Positions 25,215 through 45,378 of a stretch of 64,000 bases of DNA are shown piece after piece (positions within the stretch are counted from its first letter, which is position 1; the number at the start of each line of letters is the position of its first letter). Origin of the DNA: Aurantiacibacter sp. MUD11 (GTDB taxonomy: Bacteria; Pseudomonadota; Alphaproteobacteria; Sphingomonadales; Sphingomonadaceae); assembly GCF_026967575.1 (NCBI RefSeq), contig NZ_CP114054.1:992001-1056000 (forward strand), written 5' to 3'. A model generated the notes under the pieces. The model worked only from the letters and a program-made list of their open reading frames with translations, was not told the origin of the DNA and did no database searches. Both the position numbers and the translations under genes were made by a program.

Positions 25215-25436
25215 TCAGGCGAAGAGATTGTGCTCCAAGTCGCGTTCCAGCGGGCCGGGGATATCCAGATCCCCGGCCTGCTCCACTTCGTCCTCCAGCG
25301 GGGGAGCGAAGGGAGACATCCAGAACTTGAAGCACTGGTCTGTTGCCGCGAGCATCGTTTCGAACCATGCCGCCATCAGTTCTTCGCACAGAACCAGATG
25401 CGGGGGCAGTTCGGGAGTGAAGTCTTCCTGGGCCAT
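25215..25436 (-). CDS. Small acidic protein of unknown function
   Basis: 73 residues from the ATG at 25436, with AAGGA about 10 bases upstream. It is acidic and amphipathic (CEELMAAWFETMLAATDQCF) without signal or membrane segment. It is the last frame of the minus-strand run and lies 123 bases after the nucleotidyltransferase gene, so it may be the end of that operon or independent. I recognise no family. Confidence 0.5.
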   Translation of the reverse strand: MAQEDFTPELPPHLVLCEELMAAWFETMLAATDQCFKFWMSPFAPPLEDEVEQAGDLDIPGPLERDLEHNLFA

Positions 25437-25559
25437 GGCGTAATCGATCCTTCGTTCGCGAGTCGCAAGATACCCTGCCCCTCACGCCGATGCAAAGCTA
25501 ACCGCCTGGCGGCCGCTGGACGGCAGTCGGGGTGCGCATCTGGGGCGGGTAGTCCCTTG

Positions 25560-26780
25560 CTATTGCCTCGTATGCAGCCAGTTTCGAAAACGAGTAAGGT
25601 TTCGCGCCGCGTCGCGACCTTTGCCGGTCATGAGATATCGCAAGGAAAGGCCAAGTCGCCTGACCACAAAGTCCAGCCACAGCATCGGATAGCTCCAGCC
25701 CGCCTGCTCCTTCAGGTTCGCAAACCTGCGCCTTGCGAGCAGTTCCTCCCGGCTGTGGAATGATCTGCGCAACAAGTTCGACGCCAGCGCCCAGCCTTCC
25801 CGGTGGAACAGCCGAACCAGGTTCAGAGCCATCTTTCCGCCATCGAGGTTGCTCTTGAAGATGAGGTGCTCGGCATCCCGAAGCTGCTCCTCGCTGACGC
25901 TGCTGTCCGGTCGCTCTTCACCGATCATGGCCAGCGCCAATTCCGTCCCACGCTCGATGCCGAGCTGCCTCGCTTGCTGCAGCAGCGCGTCCGTGTCCAG
26001 GCGTGACCAATCCATCAATCGTCGCAGGTCCACGAGAAAATTCGGGCCATTGGCGAAGGCATCGTCATAGACGCTGTGCAGGATCAGGTGCAGCGCCATG
26101 TCCTGCGGACCTGGGCACGGCAGAGATTGGCCGGAAATCTCGAACGAGGACGAGCGGTCCCAGAAGCCTTCGGTGAACCTGTCCAGCAACTTGGAGGCAT
26201 GATCGGCCGAGCCTGAACAGATTCGCGAATGGACCTCTACGGGAACAACGCGATTTGGCGACCAGATCGGCGTCAGGTGCTTGGCTTTCGCGCTGGGATC
26301 GGTGGGCAGTCCGGGTAGCGCCGATTGATCTTCGCCGCACAGGTCCCTGATGCATTGCCAGGCCCGCTGCGCATCGTCTGGCCTGACCAGAAGATCGATA
26401 TCCTGTGCGGGGCGCATGATCGGGGACGGGTAGACCTGAAATGCCAGTGGCACACCTTTCAGGAACAGGTGTTCGATGCCCTGGTCCGCCAAGGCCCGGT
26501 TGATCAGGATACACTCGCGCCCCAGCAACAGCTGTCTCGTTGCCCAAAGCTGCACGATCGCGGCAATCTCGGCCGCAGGTTTCGCCGGCAGCTTGATGTT
26601 GTCGCACTCGGCAAGGGCATGCTGGAAGTATGGCAGGGCACGGTGTTCCTTGAGCCGTTCGACGACCATGGACCACTGTTCTGCGGAGACCTGGTCTATC
26701 CGGTCCTGATCGACGCATTCCGGCCTCAACAGGATATCCAGGATCAGTGCCTTGGGGAGTGGATCTGGGCCGGAATGCAT
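25560..26780 (-). CDS. Nucleotidyltransferase family protein (NTP_transf_5 type)
   Basis: 406 residues. The family core is intact: HLFLKGVPLAFQVYPSP, then IMRPAQDIDLLVRPDDAQRA with the DID metal-binding pair, then PVEVHSRIC and a helical C-terminal half. This is the uncharacterised NTP_transf_5 group known from exopolysaccharide and lasso-peptide loci, where it is thought to transfer a nucleotidyl group onto an unknown partner. Its ATG overlaps the stop of the adenylation gene (TGATG), so the two are translated together. A degenerate paralogue lies at 30291-31172. Confidence 0.88.
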   Translation of the reverse strand: MHSGPDPLPKALILDILLRPECVDQDRIDQVSAEQWSMVVERLKEHRALPYFQHALAECDNIKLPAKPAAEIAAIVQLWATRQLLLGRECILINRALADQGIEHLFLKGVPLAFQVYPSPIMRPAQDIDLLVRPDDAQRAWQCIRDLCGEDQSALPGLPTDPSAKAKHLTPIWSPNRVVPVEVHSRICSGSADHASKLLDRFTEGFWDRSSSFEISGQSLPCPGPQDMALHLILHSVYDDAFANGPNFLVDLRRLMDWSRLDTDALLQQARQLGIERGTELALAMIGEERPDSSVSEEQLRDAEHLIFKSNLDGGKMALNLVRLFHREGWALASNLLRRSFHSREELLARRRFANLKEQAGWSYPMLWLDFVVRRLGLSLRYLMTGKGRDAARNLTRFRNWLHTRQ

Positions 26781-28300
26781 CAGGAGCCAGCCGAACTCAG
26801 GATTGCCGCCGCCCGAGCCCGATCGAGCTTGCCGTTGTCGTTGCGAGGAAGCGGCTCCGATCGCTCATGAAAGCGCGCGGGGATCATGTATTCGGGCAGC
26901 ATTGTCGCACAATGGCTGCGAAGGTCGCCAAGGCTTCCGGGACTATCCGTCACGACCAGCGCCTCGATCCGGTTGGAGATTGCCGGATCGGCGATAGCCA
27001 CCGCCACCGCCTCCCGAATGCGGGGGTGACTGGATATCGCATGGTCGATCTCGCCAAGTTCAATCCTGAACCCCCGGCTCTTGACCATGTCATCAAGACG
27101 ACCGAGGAAATGATAGGCGCCATGCGCATCTCGTCTCACCCTGTCCCCGGTCCGATAGGCTAAGACTCCACCGGCATCACCCACAGGTAACGGCGCCATC
27201 CTCTTGTCGGTCAGCTCACTGTCGCCGCAGTATCCCGCCATGAGTGATGGCCCCGAAACCAACAATTCGCCGACGCCTTCTCCTTCGACGAACCCGCCTG
27301 TTTCGTCGAGCAACGCGAACTCGTGACCGGCGCAAGGCTGCCCTAGGGGCACGGCTGTATCATCAGTTTGCGTCACTTCGTAATGCGAGACCACATTGGT
27401 TTCCGTCGGTCCGTAAAGGTTATGGAACCTTGCGGATGGAAACGCTTCCATCAAGGCATTCAATTCGGAGCGCGGAAACGGCTCACCCGCAAAGAGGATG
27501 TGCCGCAGCCGGCCGAGATCATGCCTGTCCAGTTGCCCGAACCGCGGCAGGCGGGAAAGCAAGCTTGGCACCGAGTACCAGATCGTAATCCCCTGCGCGG
27601 CGACATACTTGCTCAATTCGGACGGAAAAACAGCGCGTTGCGCCGACACAAGGTGCACACAAGCGCCGGCACTGACTGCAGCGAAGATATCAAGGATCGA
27701 CAGGTCGAACGACAAGGGGGCCAGGTTTGCCAACCTGTCTTCCGGAGACATATCGAAAGTGCGGACCGCCCAATCGACGAAGTTGAGTGAGGCCCGGTGC
27801 GAAACCATCACACCCTTGGGGCGACCGGTCGAACCGGAGGTATACAGGATATAGGCAATGTCCGATGGCTCGCCGGCGCCTGCAAACGCGCATCCCTCAA
27901 GCTCGCGCAGCATGGCGAGATCGACCGGCAATTCCCGGTAATCCGTCGCCGCGGTGTCCCGATCTTCCTTCGGCGCCTGCCTGTCGGTCAGAATGACCTT
28001 GGGGGAGCAGTCATTCGCTATCAGGGCCACGCGCTTTGGAGGGCTGCCGGGATAGATGGGCACATAGGCAGCCCCGGCCTTGAGGATCGCAAAGATCGCA
28101 ACGACGGCAGCCAGGGACTTGGGCAAGTGAATGCCCACCCGATCGCCGCGAACAATTCCCATGCTGCTCAAGTGCCCGGCAAGCCTGTTGCTGAGATCAT
28201 CCAGCGCGGCGTAATCCAGCACCTCTTCCTCGTGGAAGACCGCAGGATTGCCGGGCCATCTTCGCACGGCATTCTCCAGCAATTGCGGAAGTGTTCGCAT
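26780..28300 (-). CDS. Stand-alone adenylation enzyme, probable L-prolyl-AMP ligase
   Basis: 506 residues. Adenylation core motifs: YTSGSTGRPKG (153-163), FDLS (198-201), NLYGPTETNV (294-303), YRTGDRVRRD and the C-terminal Lys491 in NDNGKLDRA. Hand alignment to GrsA gives pocket residues D199 L200 L203 Y242 L269 A271 L295 V303 V304 K491, i.e. DLLYLALVVK; from memory the proline code of pyrrole-pathway ligases (PltF, RedM, CloN4 type) is DLLYLALVCK. The surrounding text (VWYSVPS-like IWYSVPSLL, LFAGEPFP) is also of that group. It would load proline on the carrier protein at 41230-41496. There is no condensation or carrier domain in the chain. Confidence 0.85.
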   Translation of the reverse strand: MRTLPQLLENAVRRWPGNPAVFHEEEVLDYAALDDLSNRLAGHLSSMGIVRGDRVGIHLPKSLAAVVAIFAILKAGAAYVPIYPGSPPKRVALIANDCSPKVILTDRQAPKEDRDTAATDYRELPVDLAMLRELEGCAFAGAGEPSDIAYILYTSGSTGRPKGVMVSHRASLNFVDWAVRTFDMSPEDRLANLAPLSFDLSILDIFAAVSAGACVHLVSAQRAVFPSELSKYVAAQGITIWYSVPSLLSRLPRFGQLDRHDLGRLRHILFAGEPFPRSELNALMEAFPSARFHNLYGPTETNVVSHYEVTQTDDTAVPLGQPCAGHEFALLDETGGFVEGEGVGELLVSGPSLMAGYCGDSELTDKRMAPLPVGDAGGVLAYRTGDRVRRDAHGAYHFLGRLDDMVKSRGFRIELGEIDHAISSHPRIREAVAVAIADPAISNRIEALVVTDSPGSLGDLRSHCATMLPEYMIPARFHERSEPLPRNDNGKLDRARAAAILSSAGS

Positions 28301-28443: not shown

Positions 28444-29091
28444 TTACGCTGAGCGCTGCAGCCGCATCGCAATACCCATCATGACGCGCTCACCGTGCGG
28501 ACTCATCTGCACGCCTTCCCAAGCGATCAGTGAGAAATGCCGTTCGAGGTCCTCCATCAGCTCGTCCCTGACCCGCGCTTCGACCTCCGGAGTGCATTCT
28601 TCGCGAAATGCGGTCTTGTGCAGGAGCAAGAAGCGCCCGCTCGGCTTCAGTATGGAAAGCAGGTTGCGAAGATAGGCCGAGCGTTCCGTGGCGCTGCGAA
28701 GCGTATGATAGCAGCCACGATCAAACGCGCAGTCGAACGCATCGTCGATCGGTAGCTTTCTGCAGACGTCCCCTGCCAGGAAGTGAGGAGAAGCCGGTGC
28801 GTCACCGTACCGCCGTCTAGCGCGCTCGATGGCCGGTGGCGCGATATCGAGCGCGACGACGCGGTGCCCTTTGTCAGCGAAGAAAGCGGCAATCTCGCCC
28901 TGGCCGCAACCGAATTCGATGATGGAACAACCAGGGGCGAAGAAGCCGTCGGACACCGCAGCCTCAACGGGCTGCGGGATAGCGTCTATCATCCAATGCG
29001 GTCTGTAATCGTCCTTCGCCCACTGCCGTGACCAATTGCTCCGGACATCAGTGGTGAGCCTCCGACGCAGTCCTTTCAGGAAACCGATCAT
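28444..29091 (-). CDS. Class I SAM-dependent methyltransferase
   Basis: 215 residues, with GGAAGGTGGGG before the ATG at 29091. Motif I is IIEFGCGQGEIAAFF, motif II is VVALDIAPPAIERARRR, then AFDRGCYHTL and GRFLLLHKT. The layout is like thiopurine-type small-molecule methyltransferases. In this setting it could methylate a sugar or the pyrrole. It sits between the dehydrogenase (52 bases before) and the adenylation gene (143 bases after, a stretch with no gene). Confidence 0.85.
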   Translation of the reverse strand: MIGFLKGLRRRLTTDVRSNWSRQWAKDDYRPHWMIDAIPQPVEAAVSDGFFAPGCSIIEFGCGQGEIAAFFADKGHRVVALDIAPPAIERARRRYGDAPASPHFLAGDVCRKLPIDDAFDCAFDRGCYHTLRSATERSAYLRNLLSILKPSGRFLLLHKTAFREECTPEVEARVRDELMEDLERHFSLIAWEGVQMSPHGERVMMGIAMRLQRSA

Positions 29092-29143: not shown

Positions 29144-30289
29144 TCATTCGGCGGTCAGCTTCAGCAAATGGGCCAGGGTTCGATACTGGATCTCCGAAGT
29201 TCCCGAGTACGAAAGACTGCCCTGCGCATCGCGCAACTCGCGCTCAATCTCGCTTTCCATCAGGAAACCCGCCCCTCCGAAAACGTGCATCGCTTCCTGC
29301 GCCACCTGCACCCAGTTTTCCGATACGGTCAGCTTCGCCAGGGCGCTATACTTGGCGATGGACTGTCCAGCATCCATCTGCAGTGCCGTTTCACGCACGA
29401 CAAGACGAGCGGCTTCGATCAATCGATACATATCGACCAACCGTTTCGAGACGCTCTGGAAATCCGCGATCGGCCGACCGAACTGCCGGCGGCTGCGGGC
29501 GTAATCCGCTGCCTGCTCGTAGAGCCGCTGCATCGCGCCGATCGCTGGGGCGAGGATGAAGCCACGCTCAAACTCCATGACCTTGAGAAAGAGTCTGAGT
29601 CCGCCGCCTTCCGCGCCGATCCTTGCACTTTCGGGCACATGGCAATCGTTCAGGACGACATCGCCCATCTGGGCGGTTCGCAAGCCCATTTTCGGGACAT
29701 TCTGCGATGTCTGCAGGCCGTCGATCTCGCGTCTCACGCAAAAGGCGCTCAATCCGAATGCGGCGCCAATGTCACCGGTGCGCGCGAGGATGACAAACAC
29801 ATCGGCAATCGGGGCATTGGTGATGAATACCTTGCGGCCCGAAAGCCGGTAGCCATTCTCGGTCCGAACGGCAGTCGTCTCGATTGCACCGATGTCGGAC
29901 CCCGCATCAGGTTCGGTTACCGCCAGAGCCCCAATCAATTCGCCGCGAGCAAGCTGACGGATCAGATCCGCATGCTTGGTGCCGTTTCCTGCAAGCAGCG
30001 CCGACAGGCAGCCCCAGCCATGGGCACCAAGTGCAAGGGCGAGGCCGTTATCCTTGCAGGCATAGCCAAGGGCCTCCATCGCCACGACGGCATCGCTTGC
30101 GGACATGCCCTGGCCGCCCAGCTTCTCCGGAACCATCGGACCTGCCAAGCCAAGCCCGGCACAGGTATTCCACAAGGCTCGATCAAACTCGAAGGCGCCG
30201 TCTCGCCGGGCCAGATCGTCAGCCCCCGCTTCGGCCAAACCTTGAACCACGCGATCGTGAAGCTCTTTTTGAGACGGTGTCAGCGGCAA
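29144..30289 (-). CDS. Acyl-CoA dehydrogenase-family enzyme, probable prolyl-carrier dehydrogenase
   Basis: 381 residues from a TTG at 30289, one base after the preceding stop, with GGGGA upstream. FAD motifs AVTEPDAGSDI and FITNAPIAD are present. The base used by medium-chain enzymes is absent: the position is Ser362 in YSGTSEIQ. Instead Glu241 in VMEFERGF occupies the isovaleryl-CoA-dehydrogenase position, as in dehydrogenases that oxidise carrier-bound proline to pyrrole-2-carboxyl. No beta-oxidation genes are near. With the adenylation enzyme and carrier it would complete pyrrole formation. The exact substrate is inferred from context. Confidence 0.82.
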   Translation of the reverse strand: MPLTPSQKELHDRVVQGLAEAGADDLARRDGAFEFDRALWNTCAGLGLAGPMVPEKLGGQGMSASDAVVAMEALGYACKDNGLALALGAHGWGCLSALLAGNGTKHADLIRQLARGELIGALAVTEPDAGSDIGAIETTAVRTENGYRLSGRKVFITNAPIADVFVILARTGDIGAAFGLSAFCVRREIDGLQTSQNVPKMGLRTAQMGDVVLNDCHVPESARIGAEGGGLRLFLKVMEFERGFILAPAIGAMQRLYEQAADYARSRRQFGRPIADFQSVSKRLVDMYRLIEAARLVVRETALQMDAGQSIAKYSALAKLTVSENWVQVAQEAMHVFGGAGFLMESEIERELRDAQGSLSYSGTSEIQYRTLAHLLKLTAE

Positions 30290-30290: not shown

Positions 30291-31172
30291 TCAGCGTCCC
30301 CGAAAAGCGAAAGTACGCACTAGGTTCATAATCTTTCCATTGCCGGCCGCCTGTCCAGAGCTGAATGCACCTGAAGCCGCCCGCCGTGCATTATCCAGAC
30401 CGACCACAGTGTGGAGGTACTGCAGCGTCTCAGCGAGCTCGGCTGCCAAGCCGACGGACTTTGCGCGCTCCTGGATCGCCGTGACGTCCAGAGAGTCGTA
30501 GTGTCTTTGCAGCAGAATCCCAAGGTCGAGCAGGCGCAACAGCAACTGCGGTCGGTTTGCCGTAAAGCTCGTCCAGAACTGCTGGGTCGGCGAAAGGATC
30601 GGCACCGGATTTTCTTCCGTCGCCGGAAGCACCTGATCCCACGGCGCAGCTGGCAAGTGCCTGACGCGGACGATCGCCTGTTCACCGATACGACACCGCA
30701 GCTTGCCAGCCGATGCCAGGCCACAGCCGGCTACGAGCTGCGAAAGCGGCTCAACCCCTTCGCTGGCCGTGTACAGTGCGATTTCGTAGATCGGTCGCGT
30801 GGCGCGGTGCGGATAGAAATGGTTCGCCAGCGCCAGGTCATCGCCGAGCGCCCACGGTACGGAGGAGGAAGCCAATGCGGCCATGAGCGGCCGGCTTTCC
30901 GCCTCCAGCATCTGCGTGATGATCCAGTTCTTCGAATGCGCACCACGCATCCGCTGGATCACGCCATCGTGTCCATCGCGCCTTGCCTGCAGATGATAGC
31001 AGAGCGGAATCAGCAGGCACCCGGCTGCCAGCGCATCGAAATCCGCTTCGGCACACCATCGAGACCAGGCACGCTCGCTCCGGTCAGGCTCCCCCAGGGC
31101 CACCTGCAGCAGAAGCAGATCCTGCGCGTCAATCGCCCGCAATTGCGCGGCCAGGGATTTCCTGAATATCAC
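30291..31172 (-). CDS. Degenerate NTP_transf_5-like protein (catalytic motif lost)
   Basis: About 293 residues from a GTG at 31172; an alternative TTG at 31187 would overlap the previous gene. It aligns with the protein at 25560-26780 over the core, but LKG has become LGD (PWALGDDLALANHFYP) and the metal-binding DIDLLV has become EIALYT (RPIYEIALYT). It therefore lacks the residues thought necessary for nucleotidyl transfer and may be a structural partner or regulator of its paralogue. It is tightly packed in the operon (1 base from the dehydrogenase), so it looks maintained rather than decaying. Confidence 0.65.
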   Translation of the reverse strand: MIFRKSLAAQLRAIDAQDLLLLQVALGEPDRSERAWSRWCAEADFDALAAGCLLIPLCYHLQARRDGHDGVIQRMRGAHSKNWIITQMLEAESRPLMAALASSSVPWALGDDLALANHFYPHRATRPIYEIALYTASEGVEPLSQLVAGCGLASAGKLRCRIGEQAIVRVRHLPAAPWDQVLPATEENPVPILSPTQQFWTSFTANRPQLLLRLLDLGILLQRHYDSLDVTAIQERAKSVGLAAELAETLQYLHTVVGLDNARRAASGAFSSGQAAGNGKIMNLVRTFAFRGR

Positions 31173-31176
31173 TCGG

Positions 31177-31965
31177 CTACCTGTCAAAGTCTTGCGGAAA
31201 CACGTCTCGCAGTTGCGCGATCATGTCGTCGTAATTGATGATGACCTCTCGCAAGTCCCGAGACAACAGGCGCTGCGTTCCCGCGCTCACTTTACGCCTC
31301 TCCAATCCGAGGAAATCAAAGATCCGGTCTGCCGTGGCTTGATGCCTGGCGGCGTCTTCAAGGTCGTCTTCGTAGACCAATGACAGGTGCGGGTGCGCGG
31401 ATAGCGCGCTGCGTTCGATCGCCAGGTGTTCCTTGCGACGGTGAATGCGGGCGATGACCTGATCCACATCGATGGTCAGCATCTGCTGGGGCACGGCTTC
31501 AGACGGGTCGCTGACCCAAAGCCGACGCTGCAGCGCGACTATCGCCGAGATACTCTGCCGCACGATATCGCGCCGCGTTACATGGATGATCGACCAGCCG
31601 CGCTGCGCGAGAGCGTCGACAAAACGGGCGGTGGCGAAATTCTGCACGCTTTCCAACTGGTTGGGTTGAACGTGGCAGCCATAGACCCGGTCGCCTGCGG
31701 CACTACTGCAACCAAGAACATATGGAACGGGCAACCAGACGCGCTGCTGCAGGATCTCCTTGTCGAAATGCGTTTCCGGATGATCGTTCAGCAGCGAATG
31801 CAACAACCAGGTGCCGGTTCTGCCCTGCGCAAGAATGACGCAGGCTCGGCGAGCTGGCGCCAGCGACCTCGCGTATCGTGCCAATTCCCGTGACTTGCGC
31901 AGCAGCAAGCCGCCAGGTGCCGGGTATTGCTCCTGGAACGACCGGTTCGCCGCCGCCTTATCCAC
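31177..31965 (-). CDS. Sulfotransferase (Stf0/NodH-like)
   Basis: About 262 residues from a GTG at 31965 with GAAAGG 9 bases upstream; the frame is open to an ATG at 32004, which would overlap the upstream gene by 47 bases. The 5'-phosphosulfate loop of PAPS binding is GRTGTWLLHSLL and the 3'-phosphate site is IIHVTRRDIVRQSIS. The early NDHPETHFDKE and later VYEDDLEDAA fit carbohydrate sulfotransferases of the Stf0/NodH group, which sulfate glycolipids or Nod-factor-like sugars. One of four sulfotransferases in the cluster. Confidence 0.85.
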   Translation of the reverse strand: MDKAAANRSFQEQYPAPGGLLLRKSRELARYARSLAPARRACVILAQGRTGTWLLHSLLNDHPETHFDKEILQQRVWLPVPYVLGCSSAAGDRVYGCHVQPNQLESVQNFATARFVDALAQRGWSIIHVTRRDIVRQSISAIVALQRRLWVSDPSEAVPQQMLTIDVDQVIARIHRRKEHLAIERSALSAHPHLSLVYEDDLEDAARHQATADRIFDFLGLERRKVSAGTQRLLSRDLREVIINYDDMIAQLRDVFPQDFDR

Positions 31966-32629
31966 GATCGGCACCCTTTCGTGCCCGCTGAAGCTTCTTC
32001 GCAATGACCTGCAAATAGGCCTCTCTGGACGTGCTTTGCCACGTCAGGTTATCGGCATGAATGCGTCTGCGCGCCAGCACGCGCGGCACCATCAGCTCCT
32101 TCAGCCCCGCCTCGCGGCCGCGATCGAGCCAATCGATCAATTCGCCGCCACGCAAGTCTTCGTCGAAACCGCCGATCTGTTCGAATGCGCTGGCGCGGCA
32201 GACCATTGTCGTTGGCAGAAGACCGGGTTGAGCCGTCTCGGTTGCCGCTTCTCCAACACCGTCCGGGCAATCCGGATCTCGGAATTTCTCTATCAGCGTA
32301 AACGCGAGGTCATATTCCCCGATCATCGGAACCTGCGCTGCCAGCTTGTCTTCCAGCCACAGGTCGTCGGCATCGAGGAAAGCCAGGATCTGGCCGCGGG
32401 CTTGCGCAATTCCGTGGTTGCGTGCGGCCGCCGGACCTTTGCAGGCTTGGACGAAGCAGCGCACCTTGTCGCCGAAGGATCGAGCAATGTCTGCGCTGTT
32501 GTCGGTCGATCCGTCGTCGACGACGACAACCTCCATCGGGCCGAGACTCTGGCACAAGGCACTCTCGATCGCCTCACCGACAAACCGCTCACCATTGTGA
32601 ACAGGAATTATCACGCTCACCGCATTCAT
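31958..32629 (-). CDS. Glycosyltransferase family 2
   Basis: 223 residues. GT-A fold: VSVIIPVHNGERFVGEAIES, VVVVDDGSTDNSADIA, AAARNHGIAQARG and the metal-binding LAFLDADDLW. It is a retaining-size short GT2 without membrane segments, adding one sugar on the cytosolic side. Its ATG overlaps the preceding stop (TAATG). Confidence 0.88.
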   Translation of the reverse strand: MNAVSVIIPVHNGERFVGEAIESALCQSLGPMEVVVVDDGSTDNSADIARSFGDKVRCFVQACKGPAAARNHGIAQARGQILAFLDADDLWLEDKLAAQVPMIGEYDLAFTLIEKFRDPDCPDGVGEAATETAQPGLLPTTMVCRASAFEQIGGFDEDLRGGELIDWLDRGREAGLKELMVPRVLARRRIHADNLTWQSTSREAYLQVIAKKLQRARKGADRG

Positions 32630-33752: not shown

Positions 33753-34445
33753 TCAGGGCCTATCCAAGAACGTGAGATCGGAGAAGCCTGGCATTTCCGT
33801 GATGCCCTTCCCTTTCCGTCGCTTCACTGACTTGAGCAACATGAGGAGATGGTAATGCTCTGTTTTCGATTTGTTTTTGGTCAGGTTGTTCTCATGCCGC
33901 CGATGCTTCAGGACCGTGTCCTTGTGCACCCGAAAGACGAGTTCCTCCTCTTTCGCCCTGAGATACCAGTCGAGGTCGTCCGAATACTCAAGTTCGGTGT
34001 CGAAATTGCCGATCCGGTCAAATGCGGATTTGCGCATCAAGGCGCAGCACAGGCTGGGCAGGATAAAGGGTGCCGAATCCGGATCATCCAGGATCTTGGT
34101 CTGACCAAGGACCACGTCTGCCTCTTCCAGCAAGGGAAGCTGCAGGGCCAGCTTGTCAGGGGTCCAGATGTCATCTGCATCGAGGAAGGCGACAGCATTA
34201 CCCTTAGCCAGCGCAAGCCCGGTATTACGAGCATGCTGGGGGCCTGAATTGTCCTGGTACACATACCTGATCGGTCCGCGGCACGCCTTTACGATGGCGG
34301 CCGTAGCATCCGTCGAACCGTCATCGACGACGATGATCTCTTCGATCCAATCGGATGGTTGCGCGAGCACGCTGCCGATGGCTTCTTCGATGAACTTCTC
34401 CCCGCAAAAAACCGGCATGATCACGCTGGTGCGCCAGTCCGTCAC
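33753..34445 (-). CDS. Glycosyltransferase family 2
   Basis: 230 residues from a GTG at 34445 that overlaps the kinase-fragment stop (GTGA). Motifs TSVIMPVFCGEKFIEEAI, IIVVDDGSTDATAAI, GPQHARNTGLALAKG and VAFLDADDIW are intact. It is close to the GT2 at 31958-32629 in length and wording, so the two look like products of a duplication with divergent acceptors. Confidence 0.88.
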   Translation of the reverse strand: MTDWRTSVIMPVFCGEKFIEEAIGSVLAQPSDWIEEIIVVDDGSTDATAAIVKACRGPIRYVYQDNSGPQHARNTGLALAKGNAVAFLDADDIWTPDKLALQLPLLEEADVVLGQTKILDDPDSAPFILPSLCCALMRKSAFDRIGNFDTELEYSDDLDWYLRAKEEELVFRVHKDTVLKHRRHENNLTKNKSKTEHYHLLMLLKSVKRRKGKGITEMPGFSDLTFLDRP

Positions 34446-35896: not shown

Positions 35897-35917
35897 CAAA
35901 AAGAACCCTGTTTCATT

Positions 35918-36781: not shown

Positions 36782-36887
36782 GCATGGGCTATAGTTGCAT
36801 GGGTTTCCGCGATGAAAGGCTTTTCTTCCCGCCAGAATCGACGCAAGTACCCATGATTACCTTGGTGTGCGTACGGATTTTCACTTG

Positions 36888-38042: not shown

Positions 38043-38986
38043 CTGACGACATGCTGATCCATATCGGCTTCCACAAGACCGGCTCGTCTTTCCTGCAGCA
38101 TCAGGTCTTTGCCGACGACCAACTGGGTTTCGGCCTGGTCAGGCGCAAGGACCCCGAAGTCGCCGAGGCAATCCGGCATGAACATCCCTATCGCTTCAGG
38201 CCTGACGTGGCCCGCCACAAGTTGCGTGCGCAGTGTGCCGAGCAACGCGAGAAGGGTCGTTATCCCGTGCTTTCGCACGAAGGCCTATCCGGCCAGATCT
38301 TCTGCGGCGGTTTCGATAGCCTGGGCATCATGAGGCGGCTGAACGAGGTTGAGCCGAATGCGCGCATCCTGATCGTGATCAGGGAGCAGACGGGCATGCT
38401 CATTTCGCTCTACAATCAGTATGTGCGGTCCGGCGGGAGGGAACACTTTCAGGACTTCCTGCGCCATCCAGGCGGCGGACAGTTGCATTTCCACCGCGAT
38501 CACCTGTCGTATCACAATCTGATCGGCGCCTATCAACAAGCCTTCGGCCCCGATCGCGTCCTGGCGCTGCCCTACGAAATGCTGAAACGGGATCAGGTCG
38601 ACTTCGTGACGAGGATAATGAAATTCTGCCAGTTGGACCTGGACGATGACGGCCAGAAGCGCGTTGCCGGCCTTGGAACGGTCAATCCATCGATTCCGCC
38701 CGTCGGCAATGCCATCAAACGCTGGACGAACTTTCTCGCCCGCCTGCCGGAACGCGCAGGCATTCACGGCCCGGTGCCCTTCACCATCACGCGCAAGACC
38801 AACAACCGGATCAAGCGCTACACACGAAGGATTGGCGAGTTGGCCCCCGCTTCGTGGAACTCGCGTCTGCAGGAACGCTTTCGATCGACGGTATTGAGCG
38901 AGATCGGTGATCACTATCGCGACAGCAATCGCCGGACATCGGAACTGATCGGCATCGATCTGGCGGCGCTGGGCTACGACTGTTGA
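38039..38986 (+). CDS. Sulfotransferase-like protein
   Basis: 315 residues. PAPS-loop IHIGFHKTGSSFLQHQ at residues 7-22 and a 3'-phosphate-like region ILIVIREQTGMLISLYNQY are of the sulfotransferase superfamily, in a more distant branch than the other three here. The 3'-phosphate motif lacks the usual Arg-Asp-Pro, so activity is less certain. It is coupled to the preceding glycosyltransferase (ATGA overlap), suggesting that the sugar it adds is then sulfated. Confidence 0.8.
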   Translation: MTDDMLIHIGFHKTGSSFLQHQVFADDQLGFGLVRRKDPEVAEAIRHEHPYRFRPDVARHKLRAQCAEQREKGRYPVLSHEGLSGQIFCGGFDSLGIMRRLNEVEPNARILIVIREQTGMLISLYNQYVRSGGREHFQDFLRHPGGGQLHFHRDHLSYHNLIGAYQQAFGPDRVLALPYEMLKRDQVDFVTRIMKFCQLDLDDDGQKRVAGLGTVNPSIPPVGNAIKRWTNFLARLPERAGIHGPVPFTITRKTNNRIKRYTRRIGELAPASWNSRLQERFRSTVLSEIGDHYRDSNRRTSELIGIDLAALGYDC

Positions 38987-38988: not shown

Positions 38989-39984
38989 CTAGACGCCTTC
39001 CAACCACTCGGCGACTTTTGCGCTGCCAAGTTGAGATCTTGAAACCGGATGCTCCACGTCTTCAGGCGCAGGCCGCGTCTGAGGGGCTGCCATGAATTTT
39101 TCGATCCTGCTCCGCAGCAAGGTCTCGGGATGCTGCAGATAGATCGCACGCAAATGCTCGGCGTACCAATCAAGATACAGGTTCACCATCGTGGCATTAT
39201 CCCTGCCTTCAGCCTTGGGATGGAACCCGTCCGAGAAAACCAGATCGAGCTGACCATCTTCTCGAATATCGGCACGACAGAAATAGACTGGAACGTCTTG
39301 CATGATCGCAAGCGTTGCGAAGCCCGGCTGCAGGAAGATCCGGCGGCCACAGATATCTGCCGGGGTACCGAAGCGCCCCTTCTGGCCATCTCCCAGGATT
39401 GCCACCAGCCCGCCTGCGGCCAGCTCTCGTCTTGCCTGTATCAGATGGCGGCCCATAGCCGCATTGGCGGTGGCCATGGCCTGGTCGCGCGGCAAGCCGC
39501 GCCTGGAAGTCAGCATGGCGCCAATCACGGGACGACCGACGCGCCGAAAGTACCAGTCTGTGGCTGATCTGGTCGCGCTCTGATGGGCAAAAGTGATGAT
39601 TGCGGGCCCGTCCGGAAACTGGATCTCGGCCTCCCGGCCGGCGGCCGCCAGTTCGACCAAGGCCTTCCGCACTCCGACATGGAATGGTGGCCGCTTGGCA
39701 GCATTTACTTCGAGGTGAGCGAGGTTGAAACGCGACAGCCGCCAGGTGTCGGCCGGCTCACCCTGCCGCGTTACCATCAGGAAATCACGGAACAGCCGAT
39801 TCTCCTGCCGTCGGCGAATGGATAATTCCGAGAGCCGGAAGACGACGCGGTGATGCTTCTGGTATGTCCGCCGGAAGGCCACGAGCGCCGCAGGCGACAA
39901 ACGTCGCGCTACCTTCAAGCACATCGTGAAGACGGTTTGCAGTAACCCCAGGCGCCAGACGTATCGCAGGACCTGACGGATCAT
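38989..39984 (-). CDS. LpxL/HtrB-like acyltransferase
   Basis: 331 residues with the fold of lipid A late acyltransferases: AIITFAHQSATRSATDWYF, GGLVAILGDGQKGRFG, GRRIFLQPGFATLAI, PVYFCRADI and the end WYAEHLRAIYLQHPETLL. The classic HX4D/E motif is altered: after His comes QSATR, with an Asp only nine positions on. The gene overlaps the halogenase gene by ATGA and follows the carrier protein, so it may move a carrier-bound acyl group (fatty or pyrrolyl) onto a glycan or lipid. The family normally uses acyl-ACP as donor, which fits. The family assignment is good and the substrate is speculative. Confidence 0.78.
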   Translation of the reverse strand: MIRQVLRYVWRLGLLQTVFTMCLKVARRLSPAALVAFRRTYQKHHRVVFRLSELSIRRRQENRLFRDFLMVTRQGEPADTWRLSRFNLAHLEVNAAKRPPFHVGVRKALVELAAAGREAEIQFPDGPAIITFAHQSATRSATDWYFRRVGRPVIGAMLTSRRGLPRDQAMATANAAMGRHLIQARRELAAGGLVAILGDGQKGRFGTPADICGRRIFLQPGFATLAIMQDVPVYFCRADIREDGQLDLVFSDGFHPKAEGRDNATMVNLYLDWYAEHLRAIYLQHPETLLRSRIEKFMAAPQTRPAPEDVEHPVSRSQLGSAKVAEWLEGV

Positions 39985-41228
39985 GCGTTGATCAGGCGCT
40001 CTAGATTATGCCCGCGCTTATTCGTTTTCGAAGCCGCCTCGATCAGCGCCAGCTCGGTTCGCGAACTGGCAGCAAGGACGGCCTTCGCACGATCTTCATC
40101 CATCGGAGCGCTTGCATAATGCGGCAAGGCCAATCCGCGAGCGATTTCAAGCCGCGCGACCAGCTGATCTTGAAACATCTTGCGATAACGCGCTTCGTGG
40201 GCAGGCTTCTTCAGGCACTCACCCGTTGCCCATGCTGCCAGTGCACCGCCATACATCCCCAGGCTGACGCCGACGGAGTAGATCGGATCGAAGAAACCAC
40301 TGGCATCGCCGATCATGAAATAGCCGGGCCCGGCAACGCATTCCGAATGACCGGCAAAGTCATTGATGAAATGATAGCCGTCTTCGCGAAGCGTTGCGTG
40401 CTCCATCAGGTGGGCAAGTTCAGGCTCCGATTGCACGATATGGTTGAAGCGTGTTTCCCAGTCTGGGAAGTCCCGTTTGAGTGCCGAGACGGTTTCCTTG
40501 GTCAGGACAAAGCCGATGCTGGTGTATTCGCGAAGCGGGATGTGCCAGCACCACCCGGAATTGCCGTCGAGCGCCAATGAATGCTGGTAGGTAACTGGCT
40601 TGTGCTTGCGGATATCGGCATGCTCGCGAACGATGCCTTGCGCATCATAATATCGCGAATTGCGAAAATAGCCCCAAACGCTTCGGAAGCGGAAGTCAGG
40701 ATTCGTGATGCGCGATCCCAACTGTCGCGCCAGGAAGCCCGACTGACCCGAGGCATCGATAACGTATGGCGCCACGATCACGCCAGCGCCATCCGGCCCA
40801 TCATAGTGCAGTTCGTTCTGCGAGCCGTCGTAGTTCAGCCTTCGCGCGACCACCTTCTCGAACAGCTTGGCGCCATGCCGCTGTGCGCCGCGTACCAGTA
40901 TCTGGTCAAACTCATCGCGCTCCACGTGCAAGCCAAGCCGTTCGTATCCGAATTCCTTGAAGGCGATCTTGCTGACGTCGCCGGCCCAGCAAACTCGTCC
41001 GCCTTGCTTCGAGACGAAATTGGCCGCGACGATGTCATCGGTCACGCCGAGCATATCGGCATACTTCCAGATATGCGGGATCAGGTTCTCGCCAACACGA
41101 AGCCTGGGGTGAGCCTCCTTGTCGAGAATTACGACATTCACCCCAGCCTTGGCCAACAGCCCGGCGGCCATGCTTCCGCTGGGCCCGGAACCAACGACCA
41201 CAACATCTGCTTGCGCGGGAATAGCCAT
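39981..41228 (-). CDS. Flavin-dependent halogenase (or halogenase-like FAD monooxygenase)
   Basis: 415 residues. FAD-binding GSGPSG (13-18) and GENLIP (46-51), Lys74 in KQGGRVCW as candidate for the reactive lysine, the halogenase tunnel motif WCWHIP (226-231) and FDPIYSVG (313-320), which matches the F-x-P..S-x-G halogenase signature. This pattern is typical of halogenases that act on carrier-bound substrates such as PltA or Bmp2. The related geranylgeranyl-reductase-like family shares the fold, but the WxWxIP motif favours halogenation. It lies between the carrier gene (1 base) and the acyltransferase (ATGA), in the same transcript. A separate flavin reductase is not in the window. Confidence 0.8.
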   Translation of the reverse strand: MAIPAQADVVVVGSGPSGSMAAGLLAKAGVNVVILDKEAHPRLRVGENLIPHIWKYADMLGVTDDIVAANFVSKQGGRVCWAGDVSKIAFKEFGYERLGLHVERDEFDQILVRGAQRHGAKLFEKVVARRLNYDGSQNELHYDGPDGAGVIVAPYVIDASGQSGFLARQLGSRITNPDFRFRSVWGYFRNSRYYDAQGIVREHADIRKHKPVTYQHSLALDGNSGWCWHIPLREYTSIGFVLTKETVSALKRDFPDWETRFNHIVQSEPELAHLMEHATLREDGYHFINDFAGHSECVAGPGYFMIGDASGFFDPIYSVGVSLGMYGGALAAWATGECLKKPAHEARYRKMFQDQLVARLEIARGLALPHYASAPMDEDRAKAVLAASSRTELALIEAASKTNKRGHNLERLINA

Positions 41229-41229: not shown

Positions 41230-41496
41230 CTAGCGCTCCTCGTACCGGCTCAACAGGCGGCCAAGGTCGTTCAGGGTTTCGAAGTTGCCAGGCGTAATGT
41301 CGTCGGGATCGACTGCGATCCCCATCTCGTCCTCGATATACGAGACGAGCATGAACAGCTGCAGTGAATCCAGCAGCCCGGACGAGAGCAGTTCGGTGTC
41401 GCCCTCAACCGTGATTTCCTGCCCTGTCGCACTTGGCAGTTGCTCGAAGAATCCCTTCAGTTGCGCGAGATGCGCATCTGCAACGGAAGTTACCAT
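41230..41496 (-). CDS. Acyl/peptidyl carrier protein
   Basis: 88 residues from the ATG at 41496, with AGGG upstream. The phosphopantetheine site is GLLDSLQLFML, with Ser in DSL. Acidic helices and ITPGNFETLNDLGRLL complete the four-helix fold. It starts the halogenase-acyltransferase block and is the only free-standing carrier in the cluster, so it is the likely home of the adenylated amino acid. Confidence 0.88.
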   Translation of the reverse strand: MVTSVADAHLAQLKGFFEQLPSATGQEITVEGDTELLSSGLLDSLQLFMLVSYIEDEMGIAVDPDDITPGNFETLNDLGRLLSRYEER

Positions 41497-41603: not shown

Positions 41604-42467
41604 CTAGCAAGTACCAATCTTAGACCGTAGTGCGCCGACCCAGTCAGCTGTGTATCGATTGGCAAACCTGCGATCTAGCCGCGTGACCTCGGGCAGATAT
41701 TCGGCGCTCAGTTGCCTCCGAATCTGCGGCGGCATCGGCACCTTTTCGCCGGCATGGATTTTTTCCGAAAGACCCTCGCCGCACCGCGGCTCTATGCCGA
41801 GGAACCGGCAGATCCCCGAGAAGAAATCGGCCGGGTCTTCCTCGAGTTGATCGTAGAACGCTACGTGCAATTGCGTATCTGGGAAATGTCGAGACCAGCG
41901 GGAAATTACCGTGTCATAGCGATTGTTCGCCTGCGCCTTGTCCCAGGCAAGAAAGCGCTCGATTTGCTCAATGCTGGCGTTTGCGAGGCCGGAATGGCCG
42001 TACCGTGAGAAGTACATCGCTGCCTGCGACCACATGCGCTCGACGGGATTACGCAGAATGTAGACGATCTTGGCGTCGGGCAGCAGCTTGGCCACGCGAT
42101 CCACCCCGGCATCGTCCAGCCGGGCATAGGCGGGGCAGACCTCCCCGGCGATGGCCCTGCCACTGTTCGAAAAGCAGCGGGCATACCAGCGATCGTCCCT
42201 TGGCGTGAGGAAGAAGCGCGCGTGCCACATGAGGTTCGCCGGGTGCTGGACCACATCGTCCAATCCGACCCGCAACCAGCGCCGCAACATGAAACGGTCA
42301 TACTTGCCGTGAAACGCATCCAGGAACAGGGGCCTAGGGCTGCGGTCGAAATAGTGCAGCTCCTTTATCGGCGGCAGCCATACGTCATCGTGCTGCTGCA
42401 AATGATGATGCAGCCAGGTTGTCCCGGCTTTCTGGGCACCGATAACGAGGAAATCCGGCAAAGGCAT
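41604..42467 (-). CDS. Sulfotransferase
   Basis: 287 residues from the ATG at 42467, chosen over a TTG at 42503 because it avoids a 34-base overlap and has GGGGTAGAG upstream. PAPS loop FLVIGAQKAGTTWLHHHL and 3'-phosphate site IVYILRNPVERMWSQA; SRWSRHFPDTQLHVAFYDQL follows. Typical cytosolic carbohydrate sulfotransferase. It starts 2 bases after the gluconolactonase-like gene; 107 bases separate it from the carrier gene. Confidence 0.87.
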   Translation of the reverse strand: MPLPDFLVIGAQKAGTTWLHHHLQQHDDVWLPPIKELHYFDRSPRPLFLDAFHGKYDRFMLRRWLRVGLDDVVQHPANLMWHARFFLTPRDDRWYARCFSNSGRAIAGEVCPAYARLDDAGVDRVAKLLPDAKIVYILRNPVERMWSQAAMYFSRYGHSGLANASIEQIERFLAWDKAQANNRYDTVISRWSRHFPDTQLHVAFYDQLEEDPADFFSGICRFLGIEPRCGEGLSEKIHAGEKVPMPPQIRRQLSAEYLPEVTRLDRRFANRYTADWVGALRSKIGTC

Positions 42468-42469
42468 CT

Positions 42470-43336
42470 CTACCCCGGCAAGATATGACCGGAAGTCAGG
42501 CAACGCACGCGGTAAAGCGACTGGCGTGCCGTGACGTAGAGACTGTGCCCATCATCCCCCCATGCACAGTTTGCAGGCGGTTCGGGAAGCTCGATCCTGC
42601 CCAGGGGAACGAAGTCTGGCGAGATGACCCATACGCCGCCCGGTCCGGTAACGAACAGGTTCCCGCGCTTGTCGACCTTCATGCCGTCGGGCGTTCCCGC
42701 CAAATCGCGCCGCATGTCCAGAACCTGCAGTTGATCGCCGAGCCGACCGTCGTCGAGGACGCGAAAGGCATGCAGCCTATGGCTGCTGGAATCGTCGACA
42801 TAGAGCGTGCGCTCGTCGGGCGAGAAGGCAAGCCCGTTGGGCGCCTCCATCTCCTTGTGAAGGAGCTCCAGTTCTCCCGATGGCGCAAGCCGGTAGATGC
42901 CCGAGAAGCCGAGTTCTCGCTGGTGCTTGGCGATGCCGAAGGGAGGGTCGGTAAAATAGATGCTGCCATCGCTTTTCACCACGACATCGTTCGGGCTGTT
43001 GAGTCGCAGTCCCGCGAATTCCTGCGCAATGACAACCCGCTCGCCATTATCCAGTTCGCGATAGACACATCGCGCGCTGTGAGCACAGCTGATCAGCCGA
43101 CCTTCACGGTCCAGCGTGTTGCCATTGGGATGCCCGCAGGGATGACGCAGCGTAACGACGGAGCCGTTCCGCCATTCCATCAGCCTGTTGGCGGGAATGT
43201 CGCTGAAGACCAGCGATTGGGTCGACGCGCGCCAGACTGGCCCCTCCGTGAATTCCATGCCGCTGGCCAGCCGTTCAATCGAGGCGTTGCCGGCGACAAG
43301 GTCCAGCATGGCAGGATCATCCACCACGATGCGCAT
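42470..43336 (-). CDS. SMP-30/gluconolactonase-family protein
   Basis: 288 residues from the ATG at 43336; the frame is open further upstream (to 43552) and a start nearer 43405, which would touch the previous stop, cannot be excluded. Six-bladed propeller motifs: FTEGPVW, CGHPNGNTLDREGRLI, LNSPNDVVVKSDGSIYFTDP, PNGLAFSPDERTLYVDDSS, GTPDGMKVDKRGNLFV. The metal-binding Glu, Asn and Asp positions are present. Members hydrolyse sugar lactones; here it may open a lactone made by the neighbouring Gfo/Idh/MocA dehydrogenase. Confidence 0.83.
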   Translation of the reverse strand: MRIVVDDPAMLDLVAGNASIERLASGMEFTEGPVWRASTQSLVFSDIPANRLMEWRNGSVVTLRHPCGHPNGNTLDREGRLISCAHSARCVYRELDNGERVVIAQEFAGLRLNSPNDVVVKSDGSIYFTDPPFGIAKHQRELGFSGIYRLAPSGELELLHKEMEAPNGLAFSPDERTLYVDDSSSHRLHAFRVLDDGRLGDQLQVLDMRRDLAGTPDGMKVDKRGNLFVTGPGGVWVISPDFVPLGRIELPEPPANCAWGDDGHSLYVTARQSLYRVRCLTSGHILPG

Positions 43337-43398
43337 GGGCTGGCTTGGGGGGTGCCACAATTTGCGCTTCACCCGGCGCAGGTAATTTACGGACCTTC

Positions 43399-44628
43399 TC
43401 AGCAATTGGGTAACTTCGTTTCGCCCGAGGACAGCCGATCCAACATGGCGAGATAGCCATGACCATCGATCGGAAGCGATACCTGCCGCTGTTCCATTCC
43501 TGCCAGGTAGAGCGCATTCATGACTTCCAGCGTTGCCAGCGCCCCGCGACAATCAAGCTCTGGATCAAGCGGCGATCCGGCCTTGATGGCCTCCGCAAAG
43601 CGCCAGAGCAGGTTGCCATGCCCCGCCCGAGGCGGATTGCCAGACCAGCTGCGTCTTACCCCCACGCGGCCAAGCACATGCTTCAATGTCTTGCGCAATC
43701 GACTTGGCAGGATCCGCCGTCTTGCCTCCGGATTGGTATTCAGTCTCGTCCAGCCAATCTTCGGCTGTCGGTGATGATCTTCAAATGACGCGATGGCGGC
43801 GTCCGTTGCCGTCTCGAACGTTCCCAGCTCGATCAGGTCACCCGGATTGCCAGAAAGACTTCGGGCCTCGGGGATACGGATCATACCCTTCGTCCCGACG
43901 ATCGTCCTGAAGTTTCCGGCGAATGGCTGGTTCATGCTGGCATTGATGGTCGCGAGCGCACCGTTCCTGAACCGCATGGTGGCGACAAGCGTATCCTCCA
44001 TGTCGGTGTCATGCGCGTGATTGGCGAATTGCGCCTGAACGCTGACCACGTCTCCGGCTAGGTCCCGCAAGAGATCGATGTCGTGGCTCAACTGGCTCAT
44101 CACGAGCCCGCCACCTGCGAGCGACCACTCAGCCTTCCATGGCTCGCGCTGATAATATGCCTGCGAACGCATCTCGTGCCAGTTCCAGATGATCTGACGA
44201 ATTTGCCCGATCCGCCCCTCGTCGATCAGCGACTTGATCGCTCGGGGAGTGTGGAAGCCGCGATACTGATATGCGCAGCCGACAAGGAGACCCAGTTCTT
44301 CCGCGCGGAGCAAGAGCTGCGCTGCCTCGACAACGTGACGCGCCATGGGCTTTTCCAGCAGGACGTGACAACCGGCTTCGAGGCAATCGTTCGCGATCGG
44401 CGCGAGCTGTGCATGGGGTACGGCGATGGACACGAGATCACATCGCGCCTCTGCGAGCATTCTGCGGTGATCCGACCAGTGCGGCGCCTGGAATTCCTCC
44501 CCTGCGCGTTGTGAAGCTTCGGGATCGATATCGCAGACCGCCACAACCTGCATGTCCGGGCACCGCTGCGCCCACAGCAGGTGCAGCTGCCCCACGTTCC
44601 CGCAGCCGATCATCCCGAAACGAACCAT
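43399..44628 (-). CDS. Gfo/Idh/MocA-family sugar dehydrogenase
   Basis: 409 residues. N-terminal NAD-binding fold with FGMIGCGNVGQLHLLWA and the catalytic-Lys motif HVLLEKPMARHV. A C-terminal substrate domain includes GGGLVMSQLSHDIDLLRDLAG, where the His-Asp pair binds a sugar. Length is at the long end of the family. Its start codon directly follows the SDR stop (TGAATG). Confidence 0.87.
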   Translation of the reverse strand: MVRFGMIGCGNVGQLHLLWAQRCPDMQVVAVCDIDPEASQRAGEEFQAPHWSDHRRMLAEARCDLVSIAVPHAQLAPIANDCLEAGCHVLLEKPMARHVVEAAQLLLRAEELGLLVGCAYQYRGFHTPRAIKSLIDEGRIGQIRQIIWNWHEMRSQAYYQREPWKAEWSLAGGGLVMSQLSHDIDLLRDLAGDVVSVQAQFANHAHDTDMEDTLVATMRFRNGALATINASMNQPFAGNFRTIVGTKGMIRIPEARSLSGNPGDLIELGTFETATDAAIASFEDHHRQPKIGWTRLNTNPEARRRILPSRLRKTLKHVLGRVGVRRSWSGNPPRAGHGNLLWRFAEAIKAGSPLDPELDCRGALATLEVMNALYLAGMEQRQVSLPIDGHGYLAMLDRLSSGETKLPNC

Positions 44629-45378
44629 TCAGCGGGCCGTATCCGGGGGATCGAATGGCACACGACCGCTGTAGAGGGATGCTCCTGCGTCGATCGTAAG
44701 GACGCTCCCCGTGGTAAAAGCCGATTGCGTTTCATCGGCAAGGAAACAGACGGCATTCGCTATGTATTCCGGCGGGATTGTCCGCTGATGCAGCAGCGCC
44801 AGCCGTGACTTGCGCTCTTCCGCCGAAACCCACCCGGGAGCCACTGCATTCACCCTGATCGCGTGCTGCGCGAGGTCGACGGCCCATTCACGCATCTGTG
44901 CTTCCTGCGCGGCCTTGGACGCAGAATAGCTCGCCCACCGAGACGGCAGGTGAGCGTGAATCGAAGAGACGAAGGTGATCGAACCGCCCCCGCCCGCAGC
45001 CATGACCGGCACGATCTTTCGGGCAAGTCTGGCCGGACCTGCCACGTTGGTTTCCAGCGCCTGGCGCCAATGGTCTTCAGTCTCGGCCATGCCGTTCACT
45101 TCGGATTGAACCCCGAAAGCGAACACCAGGATGTCGCAGCTAGCCACGGACAGCCCTTCGACCGCGTCGGCATCACCCACGTCGATACGGTTTACCGTCA
45201 GCCCTTCGTTCGAGATGCTGCTTGAACAAGCCGACAATCTGGCTTCGTCGCGGTCGAGCAGCATGACGCTCGCCCCGCGATCCAGCAGAGCTTCTGCAAT
45301 GCTAGTACCGATGGCACCGGCTCCCACCACGATGGCGCTGCAGCCTGATATTGGCTTGCCGTGGGAGTGGGACATCAT
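44629..45378 (-). CDS. Short-chain dehydrogenase/reductase
   Basis: 249 residues from the ATG at 45378 (a second ATG follows at once), with AGGA upstream. Nucleotide-binding SAIVVGAGAIGTSIAEAL, catalytic Ser in SITFVSSIHAHLP and YSASKAAQEAQ; C-terminal ITFV...TGSVLTIDAG end is regular. It is the first gene of the second minus-strand operon and with the next gene would interconvert sugar hydroxyls and ketones for a modified nucleotide sugar. Confidence 0.87.
   Translation of the reverse strand: MMSHSHGKPISGCSAIVVGAGAIGTSIAEALLDRGASVMLLDRDEARLSACSSSISNEGLTVNRIDVGDADAVEGLSVASCDILVFAFGVQSEVNGMAETEDHWRQALETNVAGPARLARKIVPVMAAGGGGSITFVSSIHAHLPSRWASYSASKAAQEAQMREWAVDLAQHAIRVNAVAPGWVSAEERKSRLALLHQRTIPPEYIANAVCFLADETQSAFTTGSVLTIDAGASLYSGRVPFDPPDTAR

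Follow-up and report, generated by a model that had tools for sequence, protein, structure and literature searches.

A conserved gene cluster in Aurantiacibacter with a candidate route to a sulfated glycoconjugate carrying a (halo)pyrrole group

In aminocoumarin pathways such as those of clorobiocin and coumermycin, a pyrrole-2-carboxyl group passes from a carrier protein to a sugar hydroxyl; these pathways are not known to include sulfation and use transferases other than the one described below. Here we describe a cluster of 21 genes at positions 25560–45474 of the window, that is, the whole stretch of 64,000 nucleotides analyzed (positions 992001–1056000 of the one-contig, 2.79-Mb genome of Aurantiacibacter sp. 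MUD11). A kinase gene read in two frames is counted once. Its product is probably a decorated molecule unlike those described so far. With moderate confidence, we favor as this product a sulfated glycoconjugate carrying a (halo)pyrrole-2-carboxyl group, in whose assembly the tail of an RRE protein would act as a scaffold or docking peptide. Lasso peptides are another related group: their C-terminal serine is phosphorylated by HprK homologs and glycosylated by a nucleotidyltransferase (excerpts of PMC8498205); some of these clusters also hold a sulfotransferase gene (excerpts of PMC8498205 and PMC7533575). The initial annotation of this DNA had recognized no described system with such a gene set, and a literature search with narrow terms, mostly outside subscription journals and covering few of these, found none either.

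The four pyrrole-type enzymes that had been proposed (ligase, dehydrogenase, carrier and halogenase) were all recovered by Pfam, NCBIfam and PDB sequence search (Table 1). Among PDB sequences, the ligase matched the tandem domains of linear gramicidin synthase first, with summed scores, then 8xjz, a long nonribosomal peptide synthetase chain (364 bits), and then 6o6e (300 bits), an entry titled L-proline ligase and the best single-domain chain. When the pocket fragment was used as query, 6o6e (153 bits) and 7thn (123 bits, likewise titled L-proline ligase) ranked directly below the entries for gramicidin synthase, where the domains taken singly score 79 and 83 bits. The ten-residue pocket code, DLLYLALVVK, is identical in the window and in Roseobacter sp. 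GAI101, and the form DL[LF]Y.A[LF]V[CV]K is present in all 17 aligned adenylation enzymes, from the window and 16 other loci. We take 6o6e to be PltF, and the names PltF, PigI and AnaB presumably apply to the PDB chains titled L-proline ligase or Prolyl-ACP dehydrogenase; no paper printing the PltF reference pocket code was found in the literature search. Judged by these matches, the protein is a probable stand-alone proline adenylation enzyme. The exosortase-associated ligase family TIGR03098 was considered and rejected, the score being 284 bits where the model requires 592. The best NCBIfam models for the dehydrogenase were PigA and RedW (309.3 bits), with the best other model at 224 bits, and its best PDB chain was the Prolyl-ACP dehydrogenase 4irn, making it a probable prolyl-carrier dehydrogenase by homology. 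PltL was the top PDB chain for the carrier (32.7 bits), which has the serine of a DSL motif in the sequence LLSSGLLDSLQLF and scores above the PP-binding cut-off. A route to a pyrrolyl-carrier, with or without halogen, is very likely encoded.

The identity of the fourth enzyme bears on a rival explanation: this halogenase-like protein could be an oxidase acting at a different step, with a plain pyrrole on the product, all else being as we propose. The protein does score 116.5 bits with the geranylgeranyl-reductase superfamily (cut-off 158.8) and 98.7 bits with the monooxygenase QhpG, and in a tree it stands apart from PltA. However, its best NCBIfam model is CmlS (137.9 bits, cut-off 900) and the nine PDB chains that match it best are all halogenases, two being the wild type and a mutant of one protein. 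The columns K74, W.WH and F.DP..S.G, which we take to be halogenase motifs, are invariant in 23 aligned rows, and the gene adjoins the carrier gene in both the window and GAI101. We regard the oxidase explanation as rather improbable and halogenation of the product as likely. In the tree (91 rows, rows with fewer than 280 aligned residues excluded), the window protein falls inside a 42-row clade with 100/100 support that holds all 15 loci carrying both ligase and dehydrogenase, while PltA, CmlS, RadH and 8zop fall outside. Geranylgeranyl-reductase-like oxidases, raised as an alternative in the initial annotation, are not supported by the tree, where the distant flavoproteins P0077, P0082 and P0099 are separated by a 100/100 branch and P0082 is the row named geranylgeranyl reductase family protein. 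Among the matches listed, the query itself excluded, two protein relatives are 56–58% and 50 are 36–45% identical; no plasmid-borne relative was found at E<=1e-40. Three further proteins of the tryptophan-halogenase family, matching the profile nearly in full, are encoded elsewhere in the genome (G000:C1:1441505, 2333678 and 2495535).

We scanned species genomes with the halogenase alignment and took the best 80 loci of at least 466 confirmed places, which a similarity gap splits into 39 closer (L008–L046) and 41 less related (L047–L087) loci. The census profiles were partly seeded from seven of the counted loci (GAI101, that is L008, and L009, L025, L030, L038, L042 and L046), which therefore match by construction, and many of the 39 closer loci are short. 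Profile searches found the ligase in 16, the dehydrogenase in 16 and the carrier in 17 of the 39 closer loci, against 1, 0 and 0 of the 41 others; ligase and dehydrogenase occur together in 15/39 versus 0/41. Decorating enzymes appear in some of these loci. A Chromatiales locus (L046) holds ligase, dehydrogenase, carrier, halogenase and UDP-glucose dehydrogenase together with two sulfotransferases that pass the Pfam cut-off of 27 bits, another that scores 20.6 bits and is 27% identical to the window's protein at 31177, and an acyltransferase 25% identical to the window's. In Dokdonia (L030) a sulfotransferase and a methyltransferase adjoin the pathway, and Acyl_transf_3 proteins are present in the Cellvibrionaceae (L025) and Anaerolineae (L038) loci. 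Outside the seeds, sulfotransferase matches came from L012, which has neither ligase nor dehydrogenase in the stretch covered, and L039, and the acyltransferase match came from L010. Separately, a TauE/SafE-like permease occurs in 13/39 closer loci (L009, L012, L018–L021, L025, L031–L033, L040, L045 and L046; two are seeds, and many are methanotrophs) and in 0/41 others, with no match in GAI101 and none among the cluster genes of the window. The cyanobacterial locus L009 encodes two extra halogenase-like proteins, 27–28% identical to the window's, between dehydrogenase and ligase (14731–17714).

A second copy of the cluster is present in Roseobacter sp. GAI101, where BLAST identified 19 counterparts at 26–62% identity; adding the kinase gives 20 of the 21 genes. 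Gene order is kept along one run (short-chain dehydrogenase, Gfo/Idh/MocA oxidoreductase, SMP-30/gluconolactonase-like protein, sulfotransferase, carrier, halogenase, acyltransferase) and along another (sulfotransferase, RRE protein, kinase, GT2, GT4, GT2, sulfotransferase, NTP_transf_5-like protein, dehydrogenase, ligase, NTP_transf_5 protein), whereas the relative orientation of the two runs and the places of the sulfotransferase at 38039 and the GT4 at 36867 differ. With 20 of 21 counterparts and the block order kept, the cluster is an inherited unit and not a chance assembly, and a joint product is well supported because this unit is common to the window and GAI101. The opposite explanation is that there is no joint product, a pyrrole pathway having strayed by chance into an otherwise ordinary island for surface polysaccharide. 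It can draw on the lower G+C of the cluster (0.50–0.62 in 20 cluster genes versus 0.64–0.67 in 7 outside genes), on its lower G+C at third codon positions and on its not being found in relatives at the thresholds used. Yet both genomes carry the pyrrole genes mixed in among those for sugars and sulfate within the same runs, and together with the 20 genes in common at such identities this makes it very improbable. The cluster is rare: at E<=1e-60 the halogenase was found in 1/249 genomes of the window's family and 1/394 of GAI101's family, the centre genome each time, and at E<=1e-90 the dehydrogenase was found in 1/396 genomes of the order, namely that of the window. The contigs of P0002 and P0124 have the same length (22,372 bases), a hint, though no proof, of a third genome with the full set.

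The sulfotransferases, glycosyltransferases, methyltransferase and sugar dehydrogenases expected from the initial annotation were all detected by Pfam. The acyltransferase had no Pfam match, but its structure model matches the PatA/LpxM sugar-acylating fold, albeit at 12–13% identity in the PatA and LpxM alignments. H134 and D199 are invariant in 5/5 sequences and lie 65 residues apart, versus 74 in PatA, where the His/acid pair is H126/E200 (excerpts of PMC4792965). As PatA and LpxM acylate the sugars of glycolipids, this low-confidence model favors a (halo)pyrrole ester on a sugar, and we would put acyl transfer to a sugar at a little better than an even chance.

From these families and models we infer a sequence of reactions, along with the halogen, the acceptor, the product and the role of the tail. 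The ligase would adenylate L-proline and load it onto the carrier, the dehydrogenase would oxidize the prolyl-carrier to pyrrolyl-carrier, and the halogenase would halogenate the carrier-bound pyrrole. The PatA/LpxM-fold enzyme would then move the acyl group onto a sugar hydroxyl. Four glycosyltransferases would assemble the sugar part, the three proteins encoded at 42470–45474 would make or modify a sugar, and four sulfotransferases would sulfate the sugar part. The RRE protein, via its tail, may hold together or scaffold the HprK-like kinase, the NTP_transf_5 proteins and two GT2 enzymes.

Of this last layer, the RRE protein, the kinase and the two NTP_transf_5 proteins were overlooked in the initial annotation, whose proposal of a sulfated glycan with a (halo)pyrrole stands as far as it links the pyrrole families and the halogenase to sugar and sulfate genes in a unit conserved in GAI101. 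The 22-residue tail of the RRE protein is 95% identical in pairwise comparison of five sequences (window, GAI101, P0122, P0123 and P0124), against 45% for the RRE domain and 11% for the linker. A protein search with the whole RRE protein returned four proteins, itself included, and the NCBIfam model lasso_PqqD_Bac scored 58.1 bits (cut-off 80). In the predicted model the RRE domain is confident, blocks 101–120 have a predicted local distance difference test score (pLDDT) of 73–83, and residues 110–125 are mostly ordered, with a strand at 115–117 and a short helix at 120–124; residues 126–143 have pLDDT <50 and are disordered yet nearly invariant. At E<=0.001 Foldseek gave five matches, each of them the lasso RRE TbiB1 with leader peptide. 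By sequence and model, the protein resembles a leader-binding RRE/B1 protein. The kinase is read in two frames in the window and in one in GAI101 (the parts match at 53% and 36%), and may be a decayed gene or reflect an assembly error.

Proteins of this kind also occur apart from the pyrrole genes. In the order, 11/396 genomes, including the query genome, had an RRE-protein match, which in three of the other genomes extends through the tail. Across the class, an alignment of eight rows matched 25/385 genomes, again including the query genome, with five others matching to the tail end and three stopping at position 128. We compared 12 such stretches, each up to 20 kb (L105–L107 and L128–L136). 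Looser tails of the form DP[IV]H..GWP are found in L128, L129, L132 and L134, and GWP is lacking in L131 and L135. Beside the tail protein, L106 and L107 encode an HprK-like kinase–GT2 fusion, a second GT2, an NTP_transf_5 protein and an ABC transporter; the fused GT2s are relatives of the window's GT2 at 33753–34445, and the GT2 at 31958–32629 is 37–40% identical to GT2s of the same two loci. L128 has an unfused kinase together with two GT2s and an NTP-like protein, L130 and L134 hold parts of the set, and the window protein at 30291–31187 is 28–29% identical to NTP_transf_5 proteins of L105 and L107. None of the 12 stretches had a match for the halogenase or the carrier; L107 has two acyl-CoA dehydrogenases (31–34%) and L133 an adenylation enzyme (31%). 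The cassettes at L106:6525–12329, L107:4394–10114 and L128:9713–13603, which contain no ligase or halogenase genes, look like an undescribed peptide or glycan system.

Since the RRE tail, the HprK-like kinase and the two NTP_transf_5 proteins are of lasso-tailoring types, a peptide-linked product is possible: the RRE protein would combine precursor and recognition domain in one chain, and its tail would be phosphorylated (by the HprK-like kinase) and glycosylated (by NTP_transf_5 and GT2 proteins), then sulfated and pyrrolylated, and perhaps cut off. The conservation of the tail relative to domain and linker agrees with this, as do the ordered strand, typical of RRE-bound leaders, the TbiB1 matches and the grouping of RRE-tail protein, kinase, GT2s and NTP_transf_5 protein in L106, L107 and L128. 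It also has a precedent in the HprK homologs and nucleotidyltransferase acting on the C-terminal serine of lasso peptides, with a sulfotransferase in some clusters (excerpts of PMC8498205). On the other side, the cluster encodes no protease or cyclase, the tail serine is an arginine in P0124, and the window kinase is split. Typical cores of ribosomally synthesized and post-translationally modified peptides, moreover, vary more than this tail. We consider a peptide-linked product unlikely, and unlikely, too, a tail that serves as a chemically modified scaffold. A lasso peptide assignment was rejected: no B2 transglutaminase-like protease was found in the cluster, 98% of which is covered by otherwise assigned genes, and no PF00733 match to the C protein was found there, the best in the GAI101 genome being 26.5 bits over profile positions 25–79 of 354. 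The likeness in parts stays. The one Transglut_core3 match of the genome, at C1:1752698, lies ~0.7 Mb from the cluster; it belongs to a lasso-like set (G000:C1:1752698–1756792) with an Asn synthetase-like protein and a PqqD match that ends before the tail. A broader and quite doubtful idea is a new hybrid class, in which an RRE fused to its own peptide would provide the inbuilt scaffold for a sulfated glycan, assembled there by kinase, nucleotidyltransferases and glycosyltransferases and capped with halopyrrole from a separate carrier; the bare RRE-tail/kinase/GT2/NTP set would be its undecorated form.

Several observations weigh against the sulfated (halo)pyrrole glycoconjugate that we favor. 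The full gene set is known in two genomes only, no transporter gene lies inside the cluster, and the window kinase step may be lost through the split. The PigA and RedW scores of the dehydrogenase fall below the cut-offs (500 and 650 bits). Sulfotransferase profiles match just 5 of the 39 closer halogenase loci, three of them seeds. In the tree, the halogenase is not grouped with PltA, although PltA sits on a long branch; among the 42 clade rows, 27, including the window's own and three database rows, carry no ligase–dehydrogenase label, and explaining this label takes 9 changes across the tree (mean after shuffling, 14.2). Finally, the acyl acceptor is a guess, because the acyltransferase model has a mean pLDDT of 66, which is low confidence (the other four models have 42–57), and a protein search with the enzyme returned only itself.

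Gene calls were checked by open reading frames, Pfam, NCBIfam and PDB sequence search (Table 1). The genes cover 98% of the cluster stretch, and neighboring ones mostly overlap or sit <100 bases apart. On the left, the open reading frame 25215–25436 was left outside because Pfam gave no match and nothing near the GAI101 cluster corresponds to it (best E 1.2). On the right, a tRNA-Ser(cga) gene (46981–47070, minus strand) lies immediately beyond the low-G+C cluster and may mark an island border; no exact repeat of 14–25 bases was found between 46900–47150 and the remaining window. Two flank genes have close homologs in 7/15 and 5/15 genomes of the genus, never together outside the query genome. 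A defense system was considered and rejected, as none of the four cluster proteins tested had a PADLOC match.

Table 1. Genes of the cluster, in window coordinates, with the matches on which each assignment rests.
Feature	Position	Strand	Evidence
NTP_transf_5 family nucleotidyltransferase-like protein	25560..26780	-	Pfam 146.3 bits; GAI101 homolog 41%
Stand-alone adenylation enzyme, probable L-prolyl-AMP ligase	26780..28300	-	AMP-binding 294.7 bits
S-adenosylmethionine methyltransferase	28444..29091	-	Methyltransf_25 60.3 bits; sole gene of 21 without GAI101 counterpart
Probable prolyl-carrier dehydrogenase, PigA/RedW type	29144..30289	-	NCBIfam PigA 332.8 bits (under cut-off); PDB 4irn 280.7 bits
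Diverged NTP_transf_5-like protein	30291..31187	-	Pfam 25.1 bits (cut-off 31.2); GAI101 36%
Sulfotransferase	31177..32004	-	Sulfotransfer_3 29.6 bits, barely above cut-off 27; GAI101 47%
GT2 glycosyltransferase of RRE-tail cassette	31958..32629	-	Glycos_transf_2 107 bits; GAI101 51%
GT4 glycosyltransferase	32629..33747	-	Glycos_transf_1 128 bits; GAI101 56%
GT2 glycosyltransferase	33753..34445	-	Glycos_transf_2 106 bits; GAI101 62%
HprK-like kinase, two frames (34717-35523, 34442-34744)	34442..35523	-	HprK_rel_A 29.5 bits (cut-off 200); Hpr_kinase_C 17.9 bits (cut-off 33.3)
PqqD/RRE protein, C-terminal tail DLQELLTIDPIHDVTDSGWPNA	35468..35899	-	PqqD 56.9 bits
Sulfotransferase	35918..36781	-	Sulfotransfer_3 57.4 bits; GAI101 37%
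GT4 glycosyltransferase	36867..38042	+	Glycos_transf_1 106 bits; GAI101 52%
Sulfotransferase	38039..38986	+	Sulfotransfer_3 44.5 bits; GAI101 43%
PatA/LpxM-fold acyltransferase (proposed (halo)pyrrolyl mover)	38989..39984	-	Predicted-model fold; no Pfam match
Flavin-dependent halogenase	39981..41228	-	Trp_halogenase 99.8 bits (cut-off 21)
Carrier protein, PltL-like	41230..41496 (GTG open reading frame to 41535)	-	PP-binding 25.9 bits (cut-off 20.8)
Sulfotransferase	41604..42503	-	Sulfotransfer_3 81.3 bits; GAI101 54%
SMP-30/gluconolactonase-like protein	42470..43552	-	SGL 169.9 bits; GAI101 56%
Gfo/Idh/MocA oxidoreductase	43399..44628	-	GFO_IDH_MocA 97.4 bits; GAI101 49%
Short-chain dehydrogenase	44629..45474	-	adh_short_C2 116.8 bits; GAI101 51%

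If the proposed glycoconjugate is the true product, the cluster would bring together three fields studied apart: the chemistry of halopyrroles on carrier proteins, sulfated glycoconjugates and peptide tailoring guided by an RRE. It offers a defined gene set that has a second natural copy and testable intermediates. Together with this halogenase clade, a module of the prolyl-to-pyrrolyl type is found across several phyla, at some loci next to acyl- or sulfotransferases, and the nearly invariant RRE-protein tail, accompanied by kinase and nucleotidyltransferase, forms a cassette still to be explained. Compared with described systems, the cluster has, like the pyoluteorin (PltF/PltE/PltL/PltA) and marine Bmp pathways, a related prolyl ligase, a dehydrogenase, a stand-alone carrier and a flavin halogenase; unlike them, it has no polyketide synthase gene, it includes sulfo-, glycosyl- and acyltransferases, and its halogenase belongs to a separate clade. 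With the aminocoumarin pathways it would have in common the transfer of pyrrole to a sugar, and it differs in the PatA/LpxM fold predicted for the transferase. That fold is known from PatA and LpxM of glycolipids, but the proposed donor here is a carrier-bound pyrrole and not a fatty acyl group. As far as the excerpted sources go, the lasso peptides paeninodin and pseudomycoidin share with it the RRE/PqqD protein, the HprK-like kinase, the nucleotidyltransferase and, in some clusters, the sulfotransferase, whereas the present cluster is without B2 protease or C cyclase and has its peptide fused to the RRE.

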